Positions 13,511 to 20,261 of a stretch of DNA of 64,000 bases are shown piece after piece (position 1 is the stretch's first letter; each line of letters begins with the position of its first letter). The position numbers and the translations under genes were made by a program. The notes beneath the pieces were generated by a model that worked only from the letters and a program-made list of their open reading frames with translations, searched no databases and had not been told where the DNA came from. This DNA comes from Flavobacterium aquicola (GTDB lineage Bacteria > Bacteroidota > Bacteroidia > Flavobacteriales > Flavobacteriaceae): NCBI RefSeq assembly GCF_003385115.1, contig NZ_QUNI01000003.1, positions 1 to 64,000 of the forward strand, in the 5' to 3' direction.

Positions 13511-13545
13511 TTTTGTAGGTTTGTGACTGTTATTTCTTATATTTG
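13511..13545 (+). promoter_or_regulatory. Conserved promoter module, copy 1 (heads the 13.7-14.9 kb genes)
   Basis: This 35-bp block matches 32 of 35 bases of the reverse complement of 19955-19989. It contains TTTG motifs and ends in TATATTTG, a perfect -7 element (TAnnTTTG). It is followed, 72 nt later, by a second conserved block (13617-13644). Confidence 0.7.
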
Positions 13546-13616
13546 GGAATGATAGAAAGATATAGCTTTCAGACTAAGCTATCTAAATTGGAATTATATG
13601 TCTGATTTTTATCAGA

Positions 13617-13644
13617 CATATATACAAGTTATCGGTAATTTAAC
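13617..13644 (+). other. Conserved leader block, copy 1 (attI-like candidate)
   Basis: The pattern CATATATA..CAAGTTA followed by (T/C)C(G/A)G(T/C)AATT and AAC is shared with the minus strand of 19855-19885, at nearly the same distance (about 70 nt) from the shared promoter. It ends in ATTTAAC, which fits the RYYYAAC core of integron recombination sites. The role is inferred from position only. Confidence 0.4.
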
Positions 13645-13686
13645 ACACCCGTAACCACTTATGTTTAACATTATAAAAAATATAAA

Positions 13687-14223
13687 ATGACTTTATTTTC
13701 TAAATATGAATATTTGAAACAAAACAGACTTTCAGATGTTATAAGATTAATTTCTGTTCTTGGTATCGACGATAATTATTCATTTAGAAAGAATGATGGA
13801 TTGACTAAAACATTAAATGGCAAACCTAAATCGGCAAAAGACTGGTTTGAAATTGCAACAGAACATCCAGAATTTTTCAAATTCAATGTAGCCGGAGATA
13901 GTGTCGTTTTGTTATTTAGGTCATTAGTAAAACCAGATTTAAATGATAAGCGTGAACCACTGTCAATTGACCAAACACAAAAACTAATTGATCAAGCTAT
14001 AACTCTTCACGATAAGCAAATTGCACGATTACAGAAAAATAGTTTTTTAATGCCAATTATCACTGCAATTATTGCATCATTAACAACAGGAATAATTGCA
14101 TATTTTACTTTGAAAAGTAATAACGAATCAATTAAAAATATTGACAAAAAGGTAGATAATATAGTTTTGATGATGAAACAGAATTCTAATTCGGAAAAAG
14201 ACAAATCTGTTAAAAAAAAATAA
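13687..14223 (+). CDS. Unknown protein with single C-terminal membrane segment
   Basis: 178 residues. The N-terminal ~100 residues are soluble-looking (MTLFSKYEYLKQNRLSDVIRL), with no motif I recognise. One membrane segment (about 119-139, MPIITAIIASLTTGIIAYF) is followed by a charged, probably coiled tail ending in a lysine run. The layout suggests an inner-membrane-anchored cytoplasmic domain. It is the first gene after promoter module copy 1 and is followed 55 bp later by another unknown gene on the same strand, so the two probably form a unit. The gene is AT-rich like the other accessory genes nearby. The function is unknown. Confidence 0.7.
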   Translation: MTLFSKYEYLKQNRLSDVIRLISVLGIDDNYSFRKNDGLTKTLNGKPKSAKDWFEIATEHPEFFKFNVAGDSVVLLFRSLVKPDLNDKREPLSIDQTQKLIDQAITLHDKQIARLQKNSFLMPIITAIIASLTTGIIAYFTLKSNNESIKNIDKKVDNIVLMMKQNSNSEKDKSVKKK

Positions 14224-14278
14224 ATTACCGCTAACACACGCTACAAGCGCGAAAACCTCTTGTTTAAAATCAAAATTT

Positions 14279-14935
14279 ATGCACTCAATTCATCTAATTT
14301 GTACCACTCATGCAGAAAACGGTATGTGTAGTTCATCTGAATTGCTAAAACTTTTTAAACAGATTGAGCCAGAAGTAATATTTGAAGAACTTCCACCTTC
14401 ATTTTATGAAAAATTTTATATAGCAAAAAGGCAGAGCAATTTAGAGACTAGCGCAATTATTATGTACTTGAAAAGTGCTCAATTTAGGCATGTTCCAGTG
14501 GATTTTGAGGATATTCCAAGCGAAACTTTTTTTCAAAATTATAAAAAACTAATTAGTAAGGTTGAAGGAAGTCTTAATAGAAATGGGTTTGATTTTAGAA
14601 ACCTCATTGATCAAAAAAGAAATTATACTTACTCATATGGGTTCAGTTTTATAAATAGTGATGATTGTATGAGAATCAATGATGGAATCTATGGTGCTAT
14701 TCAAAACGAAGTTCAAGAATTAAATGATGAAAATTTTAAGGAAATATTTAACTGCTGGAATGATGTAAATGAAAAGCGTGAAAATGTTATGCTTCAAAAT
14801 ATCTATGATTTCAGTAAAAGATATGAATATAAAAAAGCAATTTTCATGATTGGTCACGCACATCGCAAATCAATAATTTCAAAAATTAAAGATTGTAATG
14901 AAAGTCAAGAAATAAAATTAAATTGGATATACTAA
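14279..14935 (+). CDS. Possible TraB/TIKI-like protein
   Basis: 218 residues. The start HLICTTHAENGMCSSSELL, the phrase PEVIFEELPPS (about 30-40) and the late MIGHAHRKS (about 190-198) recall the TraB/PrgY/TIKI fold, whose members carry a GTAH-like motif near the start, a PD-V--EL motif and a conserved H near the end. That similarity is by eye and distant, so the call is tentative. No signal peptide or membrane segment is visible. It is the second gene of the locus headed by promoter module copy 1, and its 3' end runs into the 189-bp tandem repeats. Confidence 0.5.
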   Translation: MHSIHLICTTHAENGMCSSSELLKLFKQIEPEVIFEELPPSFYEKFYIAKRQSNLETSAIIMYLKSAQFRHVPVDFEDIPSETFFQNYKKLISKVEGSLNRNGFDFRNLIDQKRNYTYSYGFSFINSDDCMRINDGIYGAIQNEVQELNDENFKEIFNCWNDVNEKRENVMLQNIYDFSKRYEYKKAIFMIGHAHRKSIISKIKDCNESQEIKLNWIY

Positions 14936-14982: not shown

Positions 14983-15650
14983 GTCATGCTGACGAAGGAA
15001 GCATCCCCACAAGTTGCTCGACAAAGATAATCGCAAACGTTGCGAAATACCATGCGGAGATGCTTCCTTCATCAGCATGACAAATATTGGGTGGTGTTGT
15101 GTGAAATATTTGAAATGCATTTGCTTCATTCCTCGCAATAACTTTTTTACGTCTCAACATTCCGCAAACTTGTCATGCTGACGTAGGAAGCATTCCCACA
15201 AGTTACTCGACAAAGATAATCGCAAACGTTGTGGAATATCAAGCGGAGATGCTTCCTACGTCAGCATGACAATATTGGGTGTTGTTGTGTGAAATATTTG
15301 AAATGCGTTTGTTTCGTTCCTCGTAATGACGTTTTAACGTCCTAACATTCCGCAAACTTGTCATGCTGACGAAGGAAGCATCGCCACAAGTTACTCGACA
15401 AAGATAATCGCAAACGTTGCCGAATACTATGCGGAGATGCTTCCTTCGTCAGCATGACAATATTGGGTGCTGTTGTGTGAAATAATTTGAAATGCGTTTG
15501 TTTCGTTCCTCGCAATGACGTTTTTTGACATTCCAACATTCCACAAACTTGTCATGCTGACGAAGGAAGCATCCCCACAAGTTACTCGACAAAGGTAGTC
15601 ACAAACGTTGCGGAATACTATGCGGAGATGCTTCCTTCGTCAGCATGATA
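14983..15650. repeat. Four tandem 189-bp units each with a long hairpin
   Basis: The unit start (GTCATGCTGAC) recurs at 14983, 15172, 15360 and 15551, giving periods of 189, 188 and 191 bp. Each unit has two 22-nt arms that pair across a loop of about 55 nt (arms close near 15081, 15270, 15458 and 15650), then a ~90-bp linker containing GTTCCTCGCAATGACG or variants. The fourth copy lacks most of the linker. In unit 2 an A-to-T change in the left arm is matched by T-to-A in the right arm, restoring the pair. No gene is supported here; the open frames at 14947-15138 and 15342-15539 are by-products of the repeat. Confidence 0.9.
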
Positions 15651-15710
15651 ATATTGGGTGCTATTGTGTGAAATATTAGTATCTCTGCAAAAAATCAAAA
15701 TCTCTTTCTT

Positions 15711-15790
15711 TAGCCCCGATTGAAGTGGAAATCCTTGTGGGCTGGGGTTCAGCCCACAAGATTGTAACGGAAAGCGGGACCAATGCTTCC
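15711..15790 (+). ncRNA. Dispersed structured element, copy A (Flavo-1-like candidate)
   Basis: Conserved flanks (TAGCCC(C/T)GAT, then AGTGGAAATCCTT; later GATTG, AACGGA and AGC(A/G)GGA) surround a hairpin that differs from the second copy at 37927-38006: here GTGGGCTG pairs across GGGTT with CAGCCCAC. Constant ends with a variable stem suggest an RNA structure. Elements of this appearance are frequent in Flavobacterium genomes and may correspond to the Flavo-1 RNA motif, which I could not check. Confidence 0.5.
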
Positions 15791-16899: not shown

Positions 16900-17080
16900 G
16901 TGCAAGTCTTAGGGTTTAGTTGTAAGGCTAAGATACTTGGTGTGTTGCTTTTTAATGTTTGCAATGTATTACTAAAAGATTATTTTAAACGATAAGGCAG
17001 CGTTTTATTTTTGGAGTAATACACATAACAGATTTTAAAAGCTTCATTGTAAGAAGTTCATGTAATAGTATTAAATTACA

Positions 17081-17595
17081 CTACCCACTAATTGATAATA
17101 ATGATAATGTTACAGCGATATAAATAATATATAGTATAGTATCAACGTTTGTTGTTTTTCTTTTGTCAAAAATATCAGTTTTGTTTTTAGATATACATAC
17201 CAATTCTTGGTTTTGAGTTCTTAAACTTATATACCGCAAAAGTTGAAATAAAATTATTAAAATAATTGTATTCCGAAGTCCTGTAACTCTATTACTGTGA
17301 AAGAATATTATTGAAGAATTTTCTTTTAACAAAAAATAAAGACAGAGATGTGAAACACTAATAATTAACCATAAAAAATAAACTCTTAAATTTCTTAAAG
17401 ATTTATACCCTAATGCATAAAGAAAGAATTGAGTTCCTAAAGCATAAAATGTAAGACACGAATTTTGCGTTTCACTTTCGCAAGTCTCAGAAAGAAACAT
17501 AATTCGATTGTGAGAAGAATATACGAAGCAAATATAATTACGTCCCAAAATTTTAATTTTTCAAAATAGAATAGTGGTTTTCGAATACTCCTCAT
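17081..17595 (-). pseudogene. Frameshifted multi-pass membrane protein (last cassette)
   Basis: Two overlapping minus-strand frames join into one membrane protein. Frame 1 begins at 17595 (MRSIRKPLFYFEKLKFWD) and gives a first membrane helix ending LTIELCFFL, then runs to a stop at 17437. Frame 2 continues with SETCESETQNS and four more helices (CLTFYALGTQFFLYALG; VYFLWLIISVSHLCLYFLL; NTIILIILFQLL; ILYIIYIAVTLSLL). The switch falls near 17490-17500, at a TTTCTTTCT tract that is prone to slippage. The start lies 16 bp after repeat copy 1, as expected for a cassette gene. It could alternatively be an intact 139-residue protein starting at 17500, or a sequencing error. No family is recognised. 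Confidence 0.55.
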
Positions 17596-17610
17596 TTTTT
17601 TATTATTACG

Positions 17611-17745
17611 GCTAACGTTCTGGTAATACAGCGGCTTAGGTACTAAATTAACCCCATTCTTCGGATTTGCCAAATCATCCAAATACAAGACCACTTTTCC
17701 ATTAAGGCTATTGCCTAAATTCGTTGCGGTAGCTGTTGGTAGGCG
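17611..17745 (-). repeat. attC-like repeat, copy 1
   Basis: 135 bp. It shares an almost identical core (for example CTTCGGATTTGCCAAATCAT) with copies 2 and 3. On the minus strand it starts GCCTACCAACAGC and ends CCAGAACGTTAGCC, so its ends are imperfect inverted repeats, and GTTAGCC is near the integron R' core GTTRRRY. It separates two co-oriented single genes. Confidence 0.7.
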
Positions 17746-17752
17746 TAATTTT

Positions 17753-18457
17753 TTACGAAATCCAAGTTCCTTCTGTTTTGTCAATTACCCATTTGTTATT
17801 TTTTTTCTTAATAAAGATTCTGAATCCTTGTCCGCAAAGTCTTCCACAATAAAATCCAGCATCGAGAATTCCAAATGTTTTTTGTTTGTCGAATTGTATT
17901 CTTGAAAAATAAACAACTCCTGAAAATAAAAAGTTGTATTTAGTTTCCCAAAATACTTTTCTTTCTTTTGGAAATTCAGATACATTTTTAATTTCAAATT
18001 TATTATTCAGTTTGATGCTTTTAAAATCTAAAACATATTCAGTTTTATTTTCCGTTTTTGGGATAAAAAGTTTAGTATTTGGAAAATGTTTTTCAAAATC
18101 ATTCTTTAAATCTTCTCGGCTATTTTTTATTATCGGGTCAAAAGCAATGATAATTTTGGAAGTATCGTTCTTTATTTCTAAAGTTCTTTTTTTCCATTCT
18201 AATAATTTTAATTTCTCTTCTTTAGTTGCTTTTGTAGAATCAACTCCAATGTAGTGCCCTGTTTTATCGTATATTGATTCTCCATATTTTGGCGGAAAAT
18301 TTGTCATTAATCTAATATCAATGCAAGTGGAATCAATTAAACTTGGAAAAATTTCTGTCATTACATTTTTCTCAAATTCTATTTCAGGGATTTTCTTTTC
18401 GCAACTTGCAAAGAAAATTATTAATAAGATTAATATCGTTTTGTTTAGTTTTTTCAT
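17753..18457 (-). CDS. Lipoprotein of unknown function (cassette gene)
   Basis: 234 residues from the ATG at 18457; the frame extends upstream into repeat copy 2, which I take as non-coding. MKKLNKTILILLIIFFASC is a lipoprotein signal with Cys19. The mature part is K- and E-rich with no motif I recognise. Near the end a Cys-containing stretch (GFYCGRLCGQGFRIF) leads into NNKWVIDKTEGTWIS. It should be membrane-anchored in the periplasm or on the surface. The stop codon lies just 8 bp before repeat copy 1, and repeat copy 2 ends just upstream of the start, so the gene fills its cassette completely and has no visible promoter. Confidence 0.72.
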   Translation of the reverse strand: MKKLNKTILILLIIFFASCEKKIPEIEFEKNVMTEIFPSLIDSTCIDIRLMTNFPPKYGESIYDKTGHYIGVDSTKATKEEKLKLLEWKKRTLEIKNDTSKIIIAFDPIIKNSREDLKNDFEKHFPNTKLFIPKTENKTEYVLDFKSIKLNNKFEIKNVSEFPKERKVFWETKYNFLFSGVVYFSRIQFDKQKTFGILDAGFYCGRLCGQGFRIFIKKKNNKWVIDKTEGTWIS

Positions 18458-18466
18458 AATATATCT

Positions 18467-18600
18467 GCCAACGTTCTGGTACTGCAGCGGGTTTGGGATT
18501 AAATTAAGACCATTCTTCGGATTTGCCAAATCATCCAAATACAAGACCACTTTTCCATTAAGTCTATTGCCTAAATCTGTTGTGATAGCAGTTGTAGACA
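18467..18600 (-). repeat. attC-like repeat, copy 2
   Basis: 134 bp. The core is nearly identical to copy 1. On the minus strand it starts GTCTACAACTGC and ends CCAGAACGTTGGCAG. Its end sequences differ from copies 1 and 3 while staying self-complementary in part. Confidence 0.7.
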
Positions 18601-18604
18601 GTAT

Positions 18605-19189
18605 TTATTCTTTCACAACACGTGTATTCGATAAACCATCATGAAAACCATTTTTTATAAATAAAAATGACATTCTATCAAATGGAATTAGTCTGCAAAA
18701 TGATCTTACAATAATGTCGTTTAAACTCGGTTTTTCTCCATTTATGGTGACAACTTTAGTTTTTGTGATGTATTTACCAAATGTTTTTTGAAAATGATAT
18801 TCTACAAAAGAATAATAAAAAACGAATGTTATTACCATTAAAAGCCAAGTAAATAAAAAGTTTTTGTTCACATCGAATTGAAAAATCGCTTGAAAGATTG
18901 AACCAACTATGACATAAAAGATAAAAAATATGAACGTGTCAACGATAAAATGAACAAATCTCGTACTTGATTTTACCGTGTTTAGATCTAATTGGTCTTT
19001 TTTTTGTTTTTCGATATTTACAGAATCTTTTATTTTATTAAATTCAGTAATATCAATATTTCGTGACTCAATTTCTTTTTCGGCACTATCAAGCGCTAAT
19101 TTTTGATATTTTGAATTTTCAATTGTTACTATTTTAATTAATTCTTCGTTTGTCTTTTCAGACATAACTTTATCAAAATTATTCTCCAT
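18605..19189 (-). CDS. RDD-family membrane protein (cassette gene)
   Basis: 194 residues from the ATG at 19189 (MENNFDKVM). The N-terminal ~75 residues are charged and helical. The RDD domain follows: RFVHFIVDTFIFFIFYVIVGSIF, a second helix (FTWLLMVITFVFYYSFVEY), then the conserved FGKYITKTKVVTINGEKPS and a C-terminal ..CRLIPFDRMSFLF.. region. Two membrane segments are predicted. RDD proteins sit in the inner membrane, and a few are linked to ion exchange, but the role here is unknown. It lies between repeat copies 2 and 3. A second, distantly similar RDD gene is at 45869-46345. Confidence 0.78.
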   Translation of the reverse strand: MENNFDKVMSEKTNEELIKIVTIENSKYQKLALDSAEKEIESRNIDITEFNKIKDSVNIEKQKKDQLDLNTVKSSTRFVHFIVDTFIFFIFYVIVGSIFQAIFQFDVNKNFLFTWLLMVITFVFYYSFVEYHFQKTFGKYITKTKVVTINGEKPSLNDIIVRSFCRLIPFDRMSFLFIKNGFHDGLSNTRVVKE

Positions 19190-19250
19190 ATTTATTAAAT
19201 TCAGTTGTTGGTTATATGATATTTTTGACTTCGGTTCTTGTAGTATTGCG

Positions 19251-19389
19251 TACAACGTTCTGGTACAACAGCTGGTTTGGGACTAAATTAAACCCATTCT
19301 TCGGATTTGCCAAATCATTCAAATACAAAACCATTTTTCCATTAAGCCAATTGCCTAAATCCGTTGTAGTGGATGTTACCAGCAGTTAA
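19251..19389 (-). repeat. attC-like repeat, copy 3
   Basis: 139 bp, with the same core as copies 1 and 2. On the minus strand it starts TTAACTGCTGGTAACA and ends TGTACCAGAACGTTGTACG, so the CTGGTA/TACCAG ends are inverted. The outer AATTAAC and GTTGTAC are each one mismatch from the integron cores RYYYAAC and GTTRRRY. Confidence 0.7.
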
Positions 19390-19397
19390 TTTAGCAA

Positions 19398-19832
19398 TTA
19401 TTTGTTTTTTTTCCACATTTTTACAGCCTCAACATAAAAAGATTGTTTTTCTTTTTCTGTTCCATCTACACAAACTTTGAATGTTTCATTATTAGATTTT
19501 GTTACAAGAATGTACGGGCAATAAGTTAATCCAACTTTATAAAAAGGTTCAAGTTTTATAATGTCTTTGAAGTATGCAAATTCTACTTTATTTTTTAAGG
19601 TATCTCTTTCATCAAGCCAATAAGATGCAATTCGTTTATTAGTATAAAAATTACCGGCTATCTTATTTTTAAATTCAGAGTAAAATTGAATGATTTTTTC
19701 ATCTTTTTCTAATAATTTAATATTCTTTATTCTTTGTAAATCTTCGTTACTTAAAGTTGTATTCGTCTCAATTTTATTTTGACAAGAGGATAGAAGTAAA
19801 AGGATTAGAATTGAATTAAAAAATCTTATCAT
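19398..19832 (-). CDS. Small lipoprotein of unknown function (first cassette gene)
   Basis: 144 residues. MIRFFNSILILLLLSSC is a lipoprotein signal with Cys17. The mature part is lysine-rich with no recognised domain; it includes YFKDIIKLEPFYKVGLTY and ends VEAVKMWKKNK. It is the first gene after promoter module copy 2 and the leader block at 19855-19885, and its stop lies 8 bp before repeat copy 3, so it would be transcribed first in the array. Confidence 0.7.
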   Translation of the reverse strand: MIRFFNSILILLLLSSCQNKIETNTTLSNEDLQRIKNIKLLEKDEKIIQFYSEFKNKIAGNFYTNKRIASYWLDERDTLKNKVEFAYFKDIIKLEPFYKVGLTYCPYILVTKSNNETFKVCVDGTEKEKQSFYVEAVKMWKKNK

Positions 19833-19854
19833 ATGGGTAATCCGTTAGTTTTTT

Positions 19855-19885
19855 GGTTAATTGCTGGTAACTTGCATATATATGC
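19855..19885 (-). other. Conserved leader block, copy 2 (attI-like candidate)
   Basis: On the minus strand GCATATATATGCAAGTTACC followed by AGCAATTAACC matches the block at 13617-13644. It also resembles the end of repeat copy 3 (GTTACCAGCAGTTAA on the plus strand). It lies immediately upstream of the first gene of the array. Confidence 0.4.
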
Positions 19886-19954
19886 TACAAACCTTCCTAT
19901 ATACACCCAAAATCGGGTAATTTGACAAAAGTTAGTCTCGTTTTATACTTCCTT

Positions 19955-19989
19955 CAAATATAGAAAATAATAGTCACAAACCTACAAAA
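19955..19989 (-). promoter_or_regulatory. Conserved promoter module, copy 2 (heads the cassette array)
   Basis: The reverse complement matches 13511-13545 at 32 of 35 positions and ends in TATATTTG, a perfect -7 element. It is 70 nt upstream of leader block copy 2. It is the only clear promoter for the four minus-strand genes down to 17081. Confidence 0.65.
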
Positions 19990-20073
19990 CGTAATTTTTG
20001 TTCATTTTAGCTGTTTTTATACTCAGCCCAGTAAAATAGGGTGTCCGAAGAAAAAAAAGTGCCGTCAAAGAAG

Positions 20074-20218
20074 CTTCGGACTCCATCACACGAGCTTCGG
20101 AGTCCGTCAAGAGGTCTTCGGACTGCGTCAAAAGATCTTCGGAGTCCATCAAAAGGTCTTCGGATTGGCTCCCACGATCTTCGGATGATTAACTGCCTGC
20201 TTCGGATTGCGTTTCTCA
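20074..20218. repeat. 21-bp tandem array with CTTCGGA units
   Basis: CTTCGG starts at 20074, 20095, 20116, 20137, 20158, 20179 and 20200, exactly 21 bp apart, while the other 14 bases of each unit vary (often TCCATCAAAAGGT-like). The period is a multiple of three, so both strands stay open (an LR-PS-type heptad on the plus strand), but neither frame has a convincing start site or homologue. It fills most of the 483-bp gap between 19833 and 20316. Confidence 0.85.
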
Positions 20219-20261
20219 TACTACTGAGTGAATCTGGGAGACTTTATAACTGCTATGAAAT

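Follow-up and report, generated by a model that had tools for sequence, protein, structure and literature searches.

The window analysed here, a stretch of 64,000 nucleotides (nt) from Flavobacterium aquicola (contig NZ_QUNI01000003.1, positions 1 to 64,000), contains a small array in which three long repeats alternate with single minus-strand genes. An earlier note on this DNA had read the array as integron-like cassettes without an integrase, that is, as a CALIN (cluster of attC sites lacking an integrase). The three repeat copies lie at 17595-17752, 18451-18608 and 19235-19392 and are 80-82% alike over 158 nt; with their borders set at the crossover G^TT, they give three minus-strand sites of 134 nt apiece, 17749-17616, 18605-18472 and 19389-19256. 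Between the sites there is one minus-strand open reading frame (ORF) each (19398-19832, 18605-19183 and 17753-18463; the starts were trimmed by hand to an inner ATG), which bears out the layout described before. Among the labels that had been given to these genes, RDD is confirmed by the only Pfam family above the cut-off (ORF 18605-19183), and lipoprotein stands by eye only for ORFs 19398-19832 and 17753-18463, which have no Pfam family. A fourth ORF, 17081-17548, ends without a site that passes the arm test explained below. The array is headed by an attI-like site with a predicted promoter (19976-19871), and a second platform of this kind begins at 13530-13642; both had been missed. The features, from the head of the array onwards, are as follows.

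19871-19976, minus strand: attI-like site with promoter; TATATTTG about 90 nt before the crossover, whose G is at 19871; match to the attI profile
19256-19870, minus strand: cassette 1, with ORF 19398-19832 and site 19389-19256; own-arm pairing 11 of 11, including the fixed A.C
19256-19389, minus strand: attC-like site 3, from repeat alignment, site profile, folding and crossover
18472-19255, minus strand: cassette 2, with the RDD-family ORF 18605-19183 and site 18605-18472; own-arm pairing 8 of 11
18472-18605, minus strand: attC-like site 2, from the same four lines of evidence
17616-18471, minus strand: cassette 3, with the lipoprotein-like ORF 17753-18463 and site 17749-17616; own-arm pairing 7 of 11
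17616-17749, minus strand: attC-like site 1, likewise from these four lines of evidence
17030-17615, minus strand: tail past the last site, with ORF 17081-17548 and no end site passing the arm test; far edge set by eye
16988-20256, no strand assigned: block missing from four close relatives, in which the homologous flanks lie 45-220 base pairs (bp) apart
13530-13642, plus strand: second attI-like site with promoter; crossover G at 13628, profile E 1.2e-8, fold z -5.3
13629-14290, plus strand: cassette of the second platform, with ORF 13687-14223 and a degenerate site from 14221 that the attC-like site profile does not match; arms 10 of 11, without the usual A.C

The same site is abundant in the genome of the window (G000), of which 35 contig pieces were searched together with the window, 36 stretches in all. 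A profile of the attC-like site (cut-off E 1e-5, partial copies at contig ends counted) detected 129 copies in 18 of these 36 stretches, on a single strand within any stretch and with gaps mostly of 300-1500 bp, and therefore the repeats are not due to chance. Several short contigs consist of array only, as would be expected if sites so alike break the assembly. Among cassettes of 300-1600 bp, the longest ORF is sense-directed in 96 of 101, with a median fill of 89% of the cassette body. Cassette 3 of the window is 70% alike to a cassette on another contig of the same genome (C17), and the array of genome G007 is identical letter for letter to that of F. caseinilyticum AT-3-2.

With a crossover at G^TT, as in integrons, a site and the start of its own cassette become neighbours once the cassette is a free circle, so that the left end of the site is expected to pair with that start and not with the beginning of the following cassette. 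For 107 sites of G000 the pairing with the own cassette reached 9.37 of 11 positions, compared to 4.78 with the next cassette and 4.46 with shuffled starts (standard deviation, sd, 0.16; maximum 4.92 of 500), and the corresponding values for 54 sites of other species were 7.39, 4.06 and 4.34 (sd 0.21, maximum 4.91). The pairing extends over 15 nt and then stops. Position 11 of the arm is a fixed mismatch, with A in the cassette start facing C (78 sites) or G (9 sites) in 87 of 88 well-paired sites of G000. The four scoreable first cassettes behind an attI-like site in this genome each pair 11 of 11, which also pins down the crossover position at attI; in other species 20 first cassettes in this position score 2 to 11 of 11. 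Among sites pre-selected for an arm pairing of at least 8, GTTR is present in all 131 (92 from G000 and 39 from other species). These are not canonical attC sites: GTTRRRY was found at 8 of 92 cassette starts and RYYYAAC at 9 of 92 left ends in G000, and each of them at 3 of 39 elsewhere.

The sites form an imperfect hairpin with paired ends, as attC sites do. In an alignment of 36 diverse sites, two-sided changes were observed at 15 of the 16 pairs of the inner stem, and 88.2% of the stem cells are paired, compared to 73.3% (sd 1.0) after shuffling and 34-46% with slid partners. Columns 18 and 113 read A.C on the top strand in 32 of 36 sites; an A.C on the top strand is a G.T on the bottom strand, and therefore these columns pair in 33 of 36 sites on the bottom, compared to a single one of the 36 on the top. 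At another position of this type, 14/118, the preference is less clear-cut (pairing in 26 bottom and 15 top strands). Folding favours the free circle over the array form in 98 of 106 sites of G000 and in 42 of 51 elsewhere, and the bottom strand over the top one in 99 of 106 and 38 of 51, respectively. The window sites folded in their array context gave no signal (z 0.6, 1.7 and -1.1), because there the right arm belongs to the next cassette. As far as sequence can tell, the choice of strand is like that of integron attC sites, differently written, and the bottom strand would be the substrate of recombination.

In relatives of F. aquicola the arrays are linked to a gene for a tyrosine recombinase of 347 amino acids (aa), hereafter the integrase, which immediately precedes the arrays of G005 and G007, is close to a site in G019 and is left as a broken remnant in G004. 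We took 23 Flavobacterium loci for having this gene, which is interrupted by stops in three of them. A conserved end, ...TATATACAAG^TTR or a close variant, is located 99-109 nt past the integrase stop, on the same strand, in all 23 loci; TAnnTTTG lies at most 60 nt from the stop in 19 of them, and 13 have an attC-like site (E below 1e-3). A scan of named genomes, with the integrase loci restricted to the best 80 of 569, includes Flavobacterium, Kaistella, Pedobacter, Algoriphagus and Cyclobacterium. The first cassette closes on the putative attI start (at least 10 of 11) in 35 of these 80 loci, compared to 2 of 80 in the mirror control, and contigs end within 2.5 kb downstream in 44 and upstream in 6 of the same best 80. 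The integrase is presumably the recombinase that serves these sites. Two Chryseobacterium plasmids (L191, L192) also carry its gene, with an attI-like end in both by eye and no convincing site by the Flavobacterium site profile; these copies are possibly a mobile form of the system.

An attI profile built from the ends of the 23 integrase-linked loci matches the head of the window array at 19971-19858 (E 1e-16), and an attI-like site also heads each array on contigs C5, C7, C8 and C18 of G000. Among 47 attI-like sites, 40 contain TAnnTTTG, which occurs in 11% of background windows, and 30 have a Flavobacterium-type promoter pattern, which is present in 4 of 160 cassettes (first 135 nt, several species). 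The earlier statement that cassette genes lack a promoter of their own is thus correct as a trend only, and the promoter predicted at the attI-like site, presumably a working one, would read into the array. The name CALIN fits the window in that it has three attC-like sites and no integrase nearby; it does not fit the attI-like site and promoter retained at the head, and therefore the window array is a platform without integrase and not merely an attC cluster.

Hairpins are also found in the attI-like sites (n=47; mean z -3.7, z under -2 in 36 of 47), with no average strand bias (-12.4 versus -12.3 kcal/mol over the 47 sites), and the attI-like site of the window array folds weakly (z -0.7). 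By eye, the letters of these hairpins vary among the 47 sites, for example in L179, with the pairing kept. Many integrase-free attI sites of other species have upstream an apparent decayed tail of the integrase gene (by eye). In G000, the heads of the window array and of C18 have about 110 bp of upstream sequence in common, which is unlike the integrase tail, and the second attI-like site of the window retains only the last ~35 bp of this stretch; on C5 a small helix-turn-helix (HTH)-like gene (by eye) precedes the attI-like site. In L019 (11640-12005) the place of the integrase, directly before the attI-like site, is taken by a small gene of HTH or coiled-coil type (by eye), the sequence before attI in L020 and L139 resembles the tail of a small HTH/coiled-coil gene, and L092, from a contig of G004, has three to four attI-like sites within ~11 kb, among attC-like sites.

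The additional domain specific to IntI, which is reportedly necessary for its activity (according to the title of a 2001 study by Messier and Roy), is absent from the integrase. The distance from the K box to HxLRH is 58-60 aa in 65 of 65 family proteins, compared to 100 in IntI1 and in an IntI of the phylum (L307), and the alignment to IntI4 leaves ~65 aa opposite 23. Three proteins of the family scored 198-204 bits, in two pieces, with the IntI model TIGR02249 (cut-off 265) and 213-221 bits with the XerA_Arch model NF040815 (cut-off 220, one of the three above it). In a midpoint-rooted tree of 50 rows, the integrase clade (36 rows, support 100/94) is sister to IntI (6 rows, 99/93), with XerA and XerC/D outside; the program warns of long branches, the XerA rows among them. 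The closest sequence match is 5hxy. A structural model of the integrase, with a predicted local distance difference test score (pLDDT) of 86 and a predicted template modelling score (pTM) of 0.60, has XerA 4a8e as its top fold match (Z 22.4, root-mean-square deviation, rmsd, 8.4 over 259 residues), and gives Z 19.3 and rmsd 4.7 over 256 residues with IntI4 2a3v. The enzyme therefore resembles XerA/Xer proteins in sequence and fold and, like them, has no IntI-like insert before HxLRH; unlike them, it is linked to attI and cassette arrays and has an extra N-terminal domain, and in the tree, with its long XerA branches, it appears to group with IntI. According to the model, the first 60 aa may form a small HARP-like domain. 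The matches to HARP are weak (top Foldseek match 4o66 with E 0.59; profile E 1.0; PF07443 with E 0.0087 in 1 of 38 members), and HARP was not among the 50 matches listed in a further comparison of this domain. Plasmids from Klebsiella, Aeromonas and Acinetobacter carry recombinases with 49-52% identity over the C-terminal two thirds of the integrase; one of these recombinases is annotated TnpF.

Homologues of the integrase were found in 72 of 150 Flavobacterium genomes (E 1e-60) and, throughout the class Bacteroidia, in 190 of 395 genomes and 108 of 196 genera (E 1e-80), not every one of which need head an array. Canonical IntI above the cut-off was detected in 105 of 395 sampled genomes of the phylum, of which one (G198) belongs to the class and none to the genus. 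Movement of single cassettes is indicated by a cassette of 702-703 bp that is 96% alike in two species, located behind attC on contig C31 of G000 and behind attI in G010. The homology starts exactly at GTT and stops 8 bases past the next crossover, and between the same two genomes a protein encoded beside the window array has 75% identity. The earlier note had named a lack of exact cassette-wise variation as evidence against itself; a G^TT-bordered cassette in different contexts in two species leans in its favour, as does the lack of the whole block in four close relatives. In addition, an identical 443-bp cassette occurs twice in one array of G124. No attI match was found in the 18 kb searched around each flank pair of the four close relatives lacking the block 16988-20256, and since the block is missing from these four, the platforms themselves seem to have moved.

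We consider it very probable that the three cassettes of the window form an array belonging to a second integron lineage, one that is spread through the Bacteroidia and has an integrase, an attI and a single-strand site mechanism. This reading is carried by the anatomy of the arrays, the pairing of the arms, the covariation of the stem, the exact junctions and the linkage to the integrase in relatives, all of them legible in the DNA itself. In the proposed mechanism, a tyrosine recombinase of ~345-380 aa, a sister of IntI without the IntI domain, would join circular one-gene cassettes to an attI-like target ~100 nt past its own stop, where a promoter would read into the array. The cassette site would be used as a folded single bottom strand, with an inner stem of ~18 pairs that includes G.T pairs on this strand, and its cassette-specific 15-nt arms would close fully only in the free circle. 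Since G000 yielded no integrase of this family, its sites and platforms would be leftovers or be moved in trans. On this reading the window array is an outlying, decayed member of an integron lineage that has an integrase type, sites and an attI of its own, and this lineage is probably the common integron of Bacteroidia. It also seems reasonably likely to us that the Bacteroidia have here a second integron lineage of their own, in which an IntI-sister integrase captures folded single strands without the IntI domain, the strand is chosen through G.T pairs and a single integrase acts in trans on a large number of dispersed platforms with attI and promoter; it would have been overlooked because the usual search requires the IntI domain and canonical attC cores. 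The reading of integron-like cassettes without integrase is supported in its central idea and was right in kind, with two corrections, the attI-like head of the array and sites that are not canonical attC, and the finding is larger than was stated.

Several observations weigh against this interpretation. At E 1e-60 no family integrase was found in G000, nor any remnant in the fetched stretches, and at the same threshold 8 of 12 repeat-bearing congeners (G004, G006, G008, G010, G013, G014, G015 and G017) are without the integrase; G001, G009, G011 and G022 have a weaker homologue but no such repeats. These data do not show sites and enzyme coinciding closely in individual genomes, and the linkage is provided by the loci that have both. 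No profile site was found in 10 of the 23 integrase loci, of which several have contigs that end soon after the gene and others do not, and the first-cassette test failed in 45 of the best 80 of 569. The fetched parts of the larger array contigs of G000 (such as C25, C27 and C17) showed no attI-like site, and IntI is represented by only six rows in the tree. Only one of the three window cassettes has kept perfect arms, and from the scores of 11, 8 and 7 decay seems to have begun in two of three. Separately from these points, for the IntI-group recombinase for which the earlier note recommended a genome search, TIGR02249 gave nine weak matches in G000 and none above the cut-off. The eight tyrosine recombinases of this genome were set aside, two as Xer-like by eye and the others as larger or shorter; none of them adjoins an array found here.

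The lack of a family integrase in G000 would also be expected if the arrays were old, no longer site-specifically mobile in this host and reshuffled by homologous recombination between the long sites, which in G000 are nearly alike over ~125 nt, enough for RecA. We regard this explanation as unlikely, at odds of a size that still deserve attention, because the cassette common to G000 and G010 is joined to attC in one and to attI in the other with few common bases before G^TT, and is 96% alike where the flanking-gene protein is 75% identical, and because the arms still pair at most G000 sites. An ordinary integron, with canonical attC moved by classic IntI and the array as a usual CALIN, would share the logic of cassettes, hairpin sites, G^TT crossover, attI and promoter, and canonical IntI does occur in the phylum, in the 105 genomes mentioned above. 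These genomes, however, lie outside the class of the window save G198, with none sampled in the genus, the integrase beside the sites has 58-60 aa where IntI1 has 100, and the cores are canonical in 8 (GTTRRRY) and 9 (RYYYAAC) of 92 sites, all of which makes this alternative improbable. That the repeats are ends of a transposon, a miniature inverted-repeat transposable element or a group II intron carrying genes along, as an insertion missing from four relatives and the imperfect inverted ends might suggest, is hardly credible, since the outer arms vary by cassette and pair with their own start, which is unexpected for the end of an insertion sequence or intron, no Rfam family reaches the gathering score on the sites (only two Flavo-1 RNAs do so elsewhere in the window), and attI and integrase accompany the arrays in other species.

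The integron lineage proposed here can be compared with the IntI chromosomal integrons, such as the Vibrio superintegron. Both have one-gene cassettes in one orientation, long sites that are alike within a species, hairpin sites with G^TT, an attI, a promoter into the array and tyrosine recombinases of sister clades. Unlike IntI, the Bacteroidia enzyme has no IntI-specific domain and has an N-terminal domain of ~60 aa; its gene shares the strand of the cassettes, and the promoter is located at the stop codon of this gene. In place of a 7-nt GTTRRRY core, the sites have arms of 15 nt that are specific to the cassette and contain a fixed A.C, which is G.T on the bottom strand; the attI-like site has hairpins, and there are several platforms per genome.

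Integrons of the IntI type are known in the phylum. PMC9024848 describes a complete one in Salinibacter ruber and, as earlier findings in Bacteroidetes, only integrases without cassettes; Bacteroidota are named as an integron host phylum in PMC8618304. In a survey (PMC2426708) and a work on detection (PMC9668308), the additional domain is used to pick out IntI. In searches of open-access papers, which did not include preprints, we recognised no account of such arrays in Bacteroidia. If our interpretation is true, a sister lineage of IntI that has hairpin sites, attI and arrays and no additional domain would open the question of how integrons arose to testing. With homologues in 190 of 395 Bacteroidia genomes, it would also add a large reservoir of cassette genes. 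The cassette-specific arms and the bottom-strand G.T pairs are individually alterable in an assay.

Tandem repeats were observed in the window at 20062-20187 (period 21 bp), just upstream of the integrase-free attI-like site, and likewise, by eye, upstream of integrase-free attI-like sites in L022 (8600-8840) and L020 (12382-12672); they may be part of whatever moves the platforms. Additionally, the window has at 15000-15677 a tandem repeat of ~188 bp in four copies, with long inverted repeats, which adjoins a Flavo-1 RNA at 15708-15785.

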